39,682 bases of DNA from Desulfocapsa sp. (GTDB lineage Bacteria; Desulfobacterota; Desulfobulbia; Desulfobulbales; Desulfocapsaceae). Every line of letters begins with the position of its first letter. The stretch's first letter is position 1. Location: NCBI GenBank assembly GCA_022712895.1, contig JAFLJS010000027.1, forward strand, positions 1-39,682. Direction: 5' to 3'. This document shows positions 34,880 to 38,439 of this stretch, one piece after another. Under the pieces are notes generated by a model. The model made no database searches. It was given only the letters and a program-made list of their open reading frames with translations, and was not told the origin of the DNA. The position numbers and the translations under genes were made by a program.

Positions 34880-35467
34880 ATGCTGAATTCCATGGGGAGA
34901 TTAACTCCTCTTTTTCTTGTCTTTTTTACCCTCTGTTTTGTTGAGGCAGGCATCATGGCAGAATACTCAGATGCACGTTCTCGAGGTGGCGGACGCTCTT
35001 TTCGTTCCACACCAACAAAAAAAGCTCCTGTAACCCAGAACCAGAAATCCGGAATAAGTCGTGGATTGATGGGCGGCCTGATTGGCGGTGCAATTGGAGG
35101 AATGCTGCTTGGCAGCATGTTTGGAATGGGAGGCTCAGGTATGGGAATACTTCCTTTCCTCCTGCTCGGGGTTGTGGGCTACTTTATGTATAGAAGGTTT
35201 ACTGCCGCCCGTTCTTCCGGCGGGACATCTCCTGGATTTAATATCCCGGCTTCGGGTGGTTTCACAGCTCCACCAGCCGTTCCTCTGAAAACAGGGGTGG
35301 AGGAAGGTCTGGATCAAATCCGTATTGGTGACTCAGGGTTTGATACAGATTATTTTATTCAGGTGGCATCGGATGTGTTCTTTAAAGTACAGGCTGGCTG
35401 GATGCGGCGTGATATAACTTCCTACACAAATCTGCTGAAAGAATATTCAACCACACATCATGCCTAG
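34880..35467 (+). CDS. Truncated Tim44-like protein (paralogue of 37516-38439)
   Basis: This 195-residue protein has a signal peptide (TPLFLVFFTLCFVEAGIMA), an SRGGGRSF segment, a glycine/methionine-rich membrane region (about 62-105), and only the first part of the Tim44-like domain (FDTDYFIQVASDVFFKVQAG). After TSYTNLLKEYSTTHHA it stops. The full copy continues for about 95 residues, and no remainder is found downstream. A GGAGG Shine-Dalgarno sequence is intact, so a shortened protein could still be made. It is therefore either a degraded duplicate or a shortened variant; the neighbouring nhaR remnant favours decay. Confidence 0.75.
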   Translation: MLNSMGRLTPLFLVFFTLCFVEAGIMAEYSDARSRGGGRSFRSTPTKKAPVTQNQKSGISRGLMGGLIGGAIGGMLLGSMFGMGGSGMGILPFLLLGVVGYFMYRRFTAARSSGGTSPGFNIPASGGFTAPPAVPLKTGVEEGLDQIRIGDSGFDTDYFIQVASDVFFKVQAGWMRRDITSYTNLLKEYSTTHHA

Positions 35468-35611: not shown

Positions 35612-37099
35612 ATGAAAAAAATGTACAAAGCAGTATTGATAGGCTCAGCAATGGCTATTAGCACCATAACCTTAACAATCCCCCCTTCGATGGCAACGGC
35701 TGAGACCATGATCAAAGAAACGGGTGTGGAAAGCCGCAATGAAGCCTGGGCTCAACATTTTCCTCTTCAGTATGAGTCCTGGAAACTGACTGGTGAAAGT
35801 GAGCGAATTGATGATATGCTCATCAAGAAACCGCAACTTGCTGTCCTCTGGGCCGGATATGGGTTCTCCAAGGACTACAATGCTCCGCGCGGACATCTTT
35901 ATGCCATTCAGGACAATGTCAACACTCTGCGTACCGGTGCCCCGGTGGGCCCGATAAGTGGTCCCATGCCGACTGCCTGCTGGAGCTGCAAATCTCCTGA
36001 TGTGCCGCGCATGATGCAAAAGGACGGTGAACTAGAGTTCTTTACCGGTAAATGGGCCAAGTACGGAAGTGAAATTGTTAACCCTATCGGTTGTGCTGAT
36101 TGTCACGACAGTCAAACCAGCGAATTGACCCTTTCTCGTCCTTTCCTCAAAAAAGGCCTGGAAGCGAGTGGAGTGGATCTTGAAAAGATCACCTCGGATG
36201 ATATGCGTTCTCTAACCTGTGCTCAATGCCACGTAGAATACTACTTTGAGAAGACCCCCTGGACCGACAAGGAAGGCAATAAAAAGATTGCTGTTGTGGT
36301 TACTCTCCCCTGGGCAAAAGGAATGAGCGCCGAGGCTATGGAAGAGTATTATGACGAGATAAACTTTAAAGACTGGACTCACACAATCAGCAAGGCTCCC
36401 ATGCTCAAGGCACAGCATCCCGGGTATGAGTTATACACCACCGGTATCCATGCAAAAAGTGGTGTCTCCTGTGCCGACTGTCATATGCCAAACATGAGCA
36501 AAGACGGGAAAGAGTACTCTGATCATAACCTCAAGAGTCCTATGGACGATATCGGAAACATCTGCCTCGGCTGTCATGATCAGACTGAAGAGGAGTTTCG
36601 ATCTGTGGTTGAGAACAAGCTGCAGCGTAAGGAACAGTTGATGGAAATTGCCATGGACAATCTGGCCAAGGCCCATCTCGAGGCAGGTAAGGCCTGGGAA
36701 CTGGGGGCCACCGAGCTTGAGATGGAGGACATCCTCAAGGATATAAGGCACGGTCAGTGGCGGTGGGATTATGCCATTGCCAGCCATGCCTCTTTTTTTC
36801 ATGCCCCGGAAGAAACCCTTCGTCTGCTAGCCGTATCCAATGAAATTGCCCAGACTGCACGTCTTAAATTGGTCAAGGTTCTAGCTAAATATGGTGCTGT
36901 GGACTATATGGCTCCCGATTTCTCCAGTAAAGAGAAGGCTCAGGGACTTGGAGGTGTACCTTTGACCAAGCTGATCGCAGAGAAAAAGCAGTTTAAAACA
37001 ACTCTGCTCCAGGAGTGGAACAAACAGGCAGTCAAAAATGGAAACCTGAATATGGATTCCCGTAAAGGTATGAGTGACAAGAGCTCCTACTCCAACTAA
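35612..37099 (+). CDS. nrfA: Ammonia-forming cytochrome c nitrite reductase
   Basis: NrfA reduces nitrite to ammonium with six electrons in the periplasm. The 495-residue precursor has a signal peptide (about 1-30, ending MATA). Five hemes follow: the catalytic CWSCK (Cys123-Lys127) with lysine ligation, and CXXCH at Cys161, 203, 287 and 318. Catalytic Arg107, Tyr210/211 and His269 are in the expected contexts (NTLRTGAP, QCHVEYYF, KAQHPGYELY), and the Glu-Tyr calcium site follows heme 3. GAGGAACT precedes the ATG. No nrfH quinol dehydrogenase gene is adjacent, so electrons must come from another membrane cytochrome. A terminator follows at 37296. Confidence 0.97.
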   Translation: MKKMYKAVLIGSAMAISTITLTIPPSMATAETMIKETGVESRNEAWAQHFPLQYESWKLTGESERIDDMLIKKPQLAVLWAGYGFSKDYNAPRGHLYAIQDNVNTLRTGAPVGPISGPMPTACWSCKSPDVPRMMQKDGELEFFTGKWAKYGSEIVNPIGCADCHDSQTSELTLSRPFLKKGLEASGVDLEKITSDDMRSLTCAQCHVEYYFEKTPWTDKEGNKKIAVVVTLPWAKGMSAEAMEEYYDEINFKDWTHTISKAPMLKAQHPGYELYTTGIHAKSGVSCADCHMPNMSKDGKEYSDHNLKSPMDDIGNICLGCHDQTEEEFRSVVENKLQRKEQLMEIAMDNLAKAHLEAGKAWELGATELEMEDILKDIRHGQWRWDYAIASHASFFHAPEETLRLLAVSNEIAQTARLKLVKVLAKYGAVDYMAPDFSSKEKAQGLGGVPLTKLIAEKKQFKTTLLQEWNKQAVKNGNLNMDSRKGMSDKSSYSN

Positions 37100-37139
37100 C
37101 ACATTTCTGTATTCCGCAAAACCGAATACAGTCAACAAG

Positions 37140-37266
37140 GATGGCGTGGTGAAAACTCTCCATCTCCTTCGTTGCTGCACATTTCCTATCATTACGACGT
37201 ACTTTAGTATGCCGAAATGATAGGAAATATTTGCGATTCGGATAGGAAGTTTTCTACTTAGCCATC
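37140..37266. repeat. 127-bp imperfect palindromic element (MITE/REP-like)
   Basis: The element is bounded by GGATGGC (37139-37145) and GCCATC (37261-37266). Inside, GAAAACT recurs inverted near the ends. A perfect 13-bp repeat ATTTCCTATCATT (37181-37193) / AATGATAGGAAAT (37216-37228) encloses a further small hairpin with a TTTA loop. The whole could fold into one long cruciform. It contains no coding frame of note. Its position between nrfA and its terminator, and its nested symmetry, suggest a mobile miniature element or a repetitive extragenic palindrome. Confidence 0.6.
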
Positions 37267-37295
37267 TAAGTTCTCAGTTTCACGAGTTTATCAAT

Positions 37296-37340
37296 AAAGC
37301 CTCTACCGGGAAATAATTCCAGTAGGGGCTTTGTTTGTTT
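37296..37340 (+). terminator. Intrinsic terminator downstream of nrfA
   Basis: AAAGCCTCTAC (37296-37306) pairs with GTAGGGGCTTT (37322-37332) with one G-U; an inner GGAA/TTCC extends the stem. The tail TTTGTTTGTTT follows. It lies about 200 bp after the nrfA stop, beyond the palindromic element. Confidence 0.75.
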
Positions 37341-37459
37341 AACAGTTCCTGGCTCTTTGGTATGAAACAATAAGTGGTGGGAATGTGTTCTCCATCTGTA
37401 AAACTTGCTAGCAAATAAAGTGGAGATAACACGGTTCGTGATGGCAGTATCTGCAAGGA

Positions 37460-37499
37460 ACAATGGTACCGCCTTTGTCGTGGCAGTACCATTGTTTTT
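37460..37499 (-). terminator. Hairpin between nrfA and the Tim44-like gene, possibly bidirectional
   Basis: ACAATGGTAC (37460-37469) and GTACCATTGT (37486-37495) form a perfect 10-bp stem, with an inner GCC/GGC. It lies 17 bp after the minus-strand Tim44-like stop codon. The T-run (37495-37499) is on the plus-strand side; on the minus strand only TTGTTCCTT follows. It probably ends transcription from both sides, better on the plus strand. Confidence 0.6.
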
Positions 37500-37515
37500 G
37501 AGGTGTAATAGTAGT

Positions 37516-38439
37516 CTAAGCTTCTTTAATTCCTTCTAACTTCCAGTCCTGAGTACCTAAAGGACGAGCCCAACTCCACTCTTCGGCAAACTTAACTGGT
37601 TCTGTCATAGATCCGGAAAGAAGATCTCCACTCTTGTCGTCCACGGTGTAATCGAGAAGATTGGCTGTGAAAAGAACCGTTACAAAATCTTCACCACTTT
37701 CAGATCCAGCAGAGATAAGTTCAACACCACGGATGGAGATATTCTCCAACTTGTTGAGTTCTCCTTTGGCTTCCATTTCACTGAACTGAGTTTTGTATTC
37801 AGAAGCGAGTTGTTCTCCTAACAGATGTTCGTAGGATGTTATATCTCTACGCATCCAGCCAGCCTGAACTTTAAAAAATACGTCTGATGCGATTTCTACA
37901 AAATAGTCAGTATCAAAATCTGGATCTGCTATCTGAATGACAGATATGCCTTCTTCCAGACTGGATTGTACTGGCTCCAGAGGAGGGGGGGGAGGAGTCG
38001 ATCCACCGGAGACAGCGTCATTATTGCCGCCAAAAGGAGAGTCGTTGCGTGGTGGTTGATATCCAGGAGAGGCACCTCTGGAGGGTTTTGCAGACATTCG
38101 TTTATAGAGAAAGTAGCCGGCAACACCAAGCAGCAGCAGGGGAAGGATTCCCATACCAGAGCCGCCCATGCCAAACATGGAACCAAGGAGCATGCCACCG
38201 ATGGCACCGCCAAGCAAGCCACCCATTAATCCACGGCTTAATCCAGACTTCTGCTGGTTTTGGCCGGTCTGTTTTTTCTGGGCAACAGGGGCTTTTTTTA
38301 CAGGTGTGGAACGTTTAAAAGATCTACCGCCACCTCGTGAGCGAGCATCTGAATAGTCTGCTAGAATACCAGCCTCAACAAAGCAGAGGGTGAAAAAGAC
38401 GAGAAAAAATGGGGTGAGTTTCCTCATAAAGACGAGCAT
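37516..38439 (-). CDS. Tim44-like domain membrane/secreted protein, full-length
   Basis: The 307-residue protein begins with a signal peptide or anchor (TPFFLVFFTLCFVEAGILA). An SRGGGRSF segment, a basic Gln/Lys-rich stretch, and a glycine/methionine-rich hydrophobic region (about 75-125, GGLLGGAIGGMLLGSMFGMG) follow. The C-terminal half (about 185-307) is a Tim44/MBA1-like domain (FDTDYFVEIASDVFFKVQAG, ending GTQDWKLEGIKEA). In mitochondria Tim44 tethers the import motor, but bacterial members are of unknown role, probably membrane-peripheral. GGAGG lies 6 nt before the ATG. It is the intact partner of the truncated copy at 34880, in the opposite orientation. Confidence 0.85.
   Translation of the reverse strand: MLVFMRKLTPFFLVFFTLCFVEAGILADYSDARSRGGGRSFKRSTPVKKAPVAQKKQTGQNQQKSGLSRGLMGGLLGGAIGGMLLGSMFGMGGSGMGILPLLLLGVAGYFLYKRMSAKPSRGASPGYQPPRNDSPFGGNNDAVSGGSTPPPPPLEPVQSSLEEGISVIQIADPDFDTDYFVEIASDVFFKVQAGWMRRDITSYEHLLGEQLASEYKTQFSEMEAKGELNKLENISIRGVELISAGSESGEDFVTVLFTANLLDYTVDDKSGDLLSGSMTEPVKFAEEWSWARPLGTQDWKLEGIKEA

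Follow-up and report, generated by a model that had tools for sequence, protein, structure and literature searches.

The window analysed here, a stretch of 39,682 nucleotides from Desulfocapsa sp. (contig JAFLJS010000027.1), contains a gene for a cytochrome c552 (NrfA-type nitrite reductase) and, starting 40 bp past its stop codon, a palindromic intergenic element that is followed by a terminator-like hairpin (Table 1). Tim44-like ORFs lie on both sides of the NrfA-type gene (34880-35467 and 37516-38439 of the window), one of them a weak match (below the cut-off) and the other a clear one.

Table 1. Features at the NrfA-type locus (positions are those of the window)
Feature	Position	Strand	Description
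Cytochrome c552 (NrfA-type nitrite reductase) gene, upstream	35612..37099	+	PF02335, E 8.5e-169
Left flank AACAAG	37134..37139	.	Possible target-duplication relic; 4/6 match to right flank
Whole element (very probable MITE copy)	37140..37292	+	153 bp; model R1 match, 154.7 bits; limits from the consensus and the duplications of other copies
Outer left tip GATGGCGTGGTGAAAACT	37140..37157	+	Family form GATGGCGTCGTAAAAACT; the common TCG is altered in the window copy
Inner hairpin	37181..37228	+	Perfect 13-bp stem enclosing a shorter second stem with its loop; 47 copies show compensatory changes
Inner right tip GATGGCTAAGTAGAAAACT	37248..37266	-	Pairs with outer left tip; without TCG
Outer right tip GATAAACTCGTGAAAC	37277..37292	-	Family form GATAAACTCGTAAAAACC
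Right flank AATAAA	37293..37298	.	Possible target-duplication relic
Terminator-like hairpin, T-rich tail	37296..37339	+	From sequence and fold; undamaged by the insertion

A sequence-only reading of this DNA had described a 127-bp palindrome with GATGGC/GCCATC ends, GAAAACT arms and a perfect 13-bp inner repeat, and had taken it for a dispersed miniature element rather than a plain terminator. All of these parts were located: the ends at 37140-37145 (GATGGC) and 37261-37266 (GCCATC), the GAAAACT and AGTTTTC arms between them, and the inner inverted repeat at 37181-37193 (ATTTCCTATCATT) and 37216-37228 (AATGATAGGAAAT). No other perfect inverted repeat of 13 bp with arms less than about 60 nt apart occurs in the whole window, and 20 base shuffles of the window (in 500-bp blocks) gave no comparable 13-bp inverted repeat. 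Folded as DNA, the 127 bp reached -23.7 kcal/mol against a mean of -9.6 for 200 dinucleotide shuffles (z = -6.3, with none of the 200 as good). Given the uniqueness of the repeat within the window and the strength of the fold, the palindrome at 37140-37266 is genuine and not a product of chance.

The palindrome is also far from alone. A covariance model built on 47 copies gave 134 distinct matches in the window's own genome (141 before removal of overlaps), i.e., possibly at least 134 copies, with up to 150 candidates scored and the weakest matches uncertain. A DNA search of the same genome, in which 40 of 134 candidates were scored, gave at least 48 matches with an E value of 0.001 or lower, part of which were fragments or second-strand matches of the palindrome. 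The exact tip GATNNNNTCGTAAAAA occurred 129 times in this genome and its reversed control not once, while, when 2 mismatches were allowed, a longer tip pattern gave 73 occurrences against 10 for the control. The idea of a single copy without a homologue elsewhere is thus excluded. At least 10 of the 134 matches were found at contig ends (e.g., C35, at both of its ends, C8, C11, C34 and C75), meaning that the assembly seems to break at these repeats.

Beyond this genome, an order-wide search found a match in 75 of 257 genomes (own genome included), in 45 of the 148 order genomes with completeness of at least 90% and contamination of at most 5%, and, within the genus, in 18 of 20 genomes. Among the 80 records listed for the exact left tip, most came from Desulfocapsa, Desulfobulbaceae and related MAGs. 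The left tip, exact over 19 bases, also had single matches in records named Demequina, Treponema and Sulfurovum (L131, L177 and L196), which may reflect chance, mis-binning or transfer. No copy was found in plasmid records, nor in viral contigs when these were searched with one exact pattern.

Comparison of flanks revealed that full family copies are mostly 153-155 bp long, non-coding and bounded by convergent outer tips, as conservation extends to the outer right tip. In the window copy this tip (GTTTCACGAGTTTATC) ends at 37292, judging by the duplications beside other copies and by the model match; the 127-bp unit of the sequence-only reading is therefore a real fold-back part of the element, but its right boundary falls 26 bp short of the end of the mobile unit. 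The usual anatomy of the family comprises three tips, namely an outer left tip, an inner right tip that pairs with it, and an outer right tip. In the alignment of 47 copies the TCG was mostly kept in the outer tips and mostly absent from the inner one. Among distant copies aligning only over positions 1-127, the outer right tip was clear by eye in 12 of 20, degenerate in 5 and missing in 3. The family also has a longer form of approximately 171-180 bp whose arms carry insertions. Copies of the longer form with an insertion in one arm carry TATTTATGCCCGTAGTTAGGGTG on the left or CACCCGAACAAAGGGCATAAATAC on the right, two versions that are partly complementary; own-genome loci with this form are L007, L038, L041, L045 and L046, and L026, L033-L037, L042 and L044.

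We then considered the flanks of 102 gathered units of 145-182 bp for target-site duplications. Exact 6-bp duplications were present in 44 units and exact 7-bp duplications in 11 (shuffled means 0.97 and 0.15, respectively), together 55 of the 102 units where about 1.1 would be expected; a further 9 units had a duplication of 3-5 bp, and in 38 no exact duplication reached 3 bp. When units were defined from tip to tip (shorter than 260 bp; n = 138), both flanks matched at all six positions in 54 of the 137 units having flanks, compared with 0.9% for shuffled flanks. At the 44 clean 6-bp sites the first duplicated base was A in 38 and the last was T in 41, and the target consensus was palindromic (A....T, with T-Y before and R-A after). 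The duplication of the window copy itself is degraded (AACAAG and AATAAA, 4/6). Taken with the 134 matches in one genome, these duplications bear out the proposal that the palindrome belongs to a dispersed miniature element.

The 3' end of the NrfA-type gene was matched in 7 of the 20 genus genomes, own genome included. At all six orthologous loci in sister genomes the model found no copy of the element at E up to 1, while the same model run on the seventh locus, the window's own, recovered the window copy. The orthologous flanks are too diverged for the junctions to be aligned to the base; by eye, each of the six genes is followed by other intergenic DNA that lacks the element, and a terminator-like hairpin lies close to the gene end. 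In one sister genome (G010), a stretch that lies past the terminator behind the NrfA-type gene (L241:1298-1335) resembles by eye a degenerate left half of the family; it was not scored by the model.

Based on the copies in the genome, the target-site duplications and the element-free orthologous sites, we are highly confident that the window element belongs to a non-autonomous DNA transposon (a MITE), of which it is an old and probably immobile copy, and which would have been mobilised in trans by an insertion sequence (IS) with tips of this kind. We take the window copy to be an old insertion given its 4/6 duplication and the loss of TCG from its left tip, and the changed tips suggest that it can probably no longer move.

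The position of the element, a strong fold downstream of a gene, would also suit a plain intrinsic terminator, and this explanation is almost certainly wrong: a separate terminator-like hairpin with a T tract lies at 37296-37339, such a hairpin is seen by eye after the gene in sister genomes that have no element there, and more than 100 dispersed copies with duplications refute termination as the sole explanation. A different possibility is that the hairpin has a regulatory or RNA role for the host and is retained in 3' UTRs to stabilise or attenuate transcripts, in this case the nrfA-type transcript. The window copy does lie between stop codon and terminator, and it keeps paired changes despite its changed tips. 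The fold-back as a whole was assessed in 47 copies, comprising the window copy and 46 of the 102 units (selected for a length of 150-157, an unambiguous orientation and mutual identity no higher than 93%). The drawn structure paired in 92.1% of cells, compared with 35.5-43.5% for slid versions, and 17 of the 40 pairs were changed on both sides (11.6 on average in shuffles), with 135 such cells (36.4 when shuffled), bearing in mind that the structure was derived from the same sequences and that relatedness inflates covariation scores. Some drawn pairs failed often (e.g., columns 55-86 in 18 rows), and an unguided consensus fold had double changes in 12 of 27 pairs. The fold-back stem hence shows strong compensatory change and evolves concertedly, with which either selection for the fold or palindrome-templated correction is compatible.

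These changes are in favour of a role for the host, but correction of the palindrome could yield the same covariation, and the placement of copies speaks against such a role. Of 80 distinct matches in own-genome loci, a crude ORF caller allowed the placement of 61 (the other 19 lacked a called neighbour on at least one side): 39 lay between tandem genes, 11 between convergent and 9 between divergent genes, and 2 inside a called ORF. Those between tandem genes ran along the gene direction in 17 cases and against it in 22, without a clear orientation preference. These counts fit tolerated intergenic insertion rather than a fixed regulatory role. Together with the absence of the element at 6/6 orthologous loci and of any Rfam match at gathering score in 36900-37550, they make a host regulatory element very improbable.

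About as improbable, or slightly more so, is an identity as a REP/BIME-type palindrome, with a REP-associated tyrosine (Y1) transposase as the mobiliser that could act on the single-stranded hairpin. The strong hairpin is in keeping with it, as is the own genome's complement of transposases, with five Y1_Tnp matches and none to DDE_Tnp_1. However, family tips (with at most 1 mismatch) were found near only one of the five Y1 loci, L059, where two tips on one strand come from a MITE copy beside a partial gene. In the stretches read, none of the five matches lay within a convergent pair of close-matching tips, and we thus rejected them as the mobiliser. Y1 is also disfavoured by the size of the unit (150 bp), its two outer tips and its exact target duplications of 6-7 bp; Y1 single-strand transposition is not known to produce such duplications. 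Nor does the element follow the REP/RAYT pattern, that of a 20-40 bp unit which flanks or is served by a Y1 transposase and makes no duplication.

As to an autonomous element in the own genome, no transposase was recognised by eye between tips in the ORFs of 14 own-genome loci, in a search that covered 61 tips away from known copies (among 100 listed of the 129) and stretches up to about 2 kb inward. An IS91-like (Y2) partner was discarded, as only one of 12 Y2 loci in the genus, L228, had a tip pair and the own genome had no Y2_Tnp match. The unit concerned (L228:1184-2162, also L174:1471-2449) is 979 bp long, with family tips, a decayed IS91-like transposase and, in L174, a perfect ATTATT duplication; given the single tip pair and the lack of Y2 in the own genome, we read it as captured or nested DNA. 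The transposase in L253 was likewise set aside, being of the IS1182 family (414.5 bits), with ends of its own and inserted in the loop of a MITE. This element (L253:1268-3119) has the ends GGAGCTTGTCCGAGAA, and the MITE loop that holds it contains CTAG; in another copy the same place is taken by a short element whose ends are similar (L133:912-1073).

A better candidate came from sister genome G028, in which a 578-aa transposase (DDE_Tnp_1_6, DDE_Tnp_1 and DUF772) is enclosed by the same kind of tips. The candidate partner is an IS of approximately 1.9 kb that encodes a DDE transposase and has tips of the MITE type GAT-NNNN-TCGTAAAAA. Among 23 distinct IS-like places (not counting L285, which is the IS1182-type element described above for L253), 8 had both tips, 8 had one and 7 had none. 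The eight two-tip copies were 1885-1960 bp long (up to 2 mismatches in the tips); four of them (L273, L293, L278 and L280) had a perfect 6-bp duplication and four (L264, which begins near a contig end, L274, L286 and L277) had no matching one. Relatives of the transposase were detected at E 0.001 in 14 of 93 family genomes, some as fragments or distant matches; the same search found no relative in the own genome. Both this absence and the contrast with the MITE, matched in 18 of the 20 genus genomes, count against the IS as partner. The 117 plasmid records with a relative were all less than 60% identical (best listed 36.9%), and 8 of the 15 listed were annotated as IS1182 family.

The tips and the duplication length of the IS agree with those of the MITE, and from these shared features we consider mobilisation in trans likely. 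The sequence common to both amounts to some 16-18 bp of tip only, meaning that the MITE is no simple internal deletion of any IS seen. A 141-bp tip-bounded unit with a perfect ACCCTT duplication lies beside the full IS in G082 (L273:2387-2527) and represents a second MITE type.

Mobilisation of the MITE would then proceed as follows: an IS with GAT-NNNN-TCGTAAAAA tips would provide in trans the DDE transposase that binds and cuts the two outer tips of the MITE, and the element would be pasted into a palindromic A-NNNN-T target with 6 (sometimes 7) bp duplicated. The internal fold-back would not be required for defining the ends of the element. The inner tip keeps GATGG and GTAAAAAACT. It is conceivable, if unlikely, that the inner tip and the covarying fold-back have a function in the mobile cycle rather than being leftovers; the inner tip might then capture transposase yet escape cleavage, or the left tip might be exposed or hidden by the folded core. 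If true, folding would let the MITE regulate its own mobilisation, and this design would have been kept across a bacterial order.

The MITE reading is well supported; the element is ordinary in kind, and the family is new as far as our literature search reaches: titles and abstract openings contained no recognisable description of it, and PMC3733652 makes no mention of Desulfo. The family spans an order, and the matching DDE insertion sequence falls below curated family cut-offs. In the own genome the family accounts for many intergenic palindromes and some assembly breaks, and more than 100 insertions in one genome offer a test bed for the persistence of prokaryotic MITEs without a visible matching transposase.

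Known systems resemble the family in different respects. The ERIC/IRU of enterobacteria is a palindromic intergenic unit of approximately 127 bp, and the likeness, drawn by description only, lies in this size and form; the present MITE differs in reaching 153-155 bp, in its 6-7 bp duplications and in its occurrence in Desulfobulbaceae-type genomes. With REP/REPIN and their RAYT transposase it has a dispersed intergenic hairpin in common, but it is larger and has two outer tips, target duplications and a candidate DDE partner. For the partner IS, the IS1182 family and the ISNCY/ISDol1 group are candidate families, as the transposase matched their NCBIfam models below the cut-offs (IS1182, NF033551, 159 bits against 270; ISNCY_1, 56 bits against 325). 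Members of the ISDol1 group make 6-7 bp duplications and are 1.6-1.9 kb long, to which we liken the partner IS by description only. PMC8147514 names this group. Among bacterial MITEs, Chunjie elements are described in the review PMC10969869, where Chunjie-1 of Geobacter uraniireducens has 37 other copies, 178-235 bp long and conserved at their ends, as well as 57 partial copies. Our family shares with such MITEs that it is short, non-coding and mostly intergenic, with inverted ends and direct repeats (PMC10969869); compared with Chunjie, again by description only, the Desulfocapsa MITE is of another size, is found order-wide and carries a third, inner tip.
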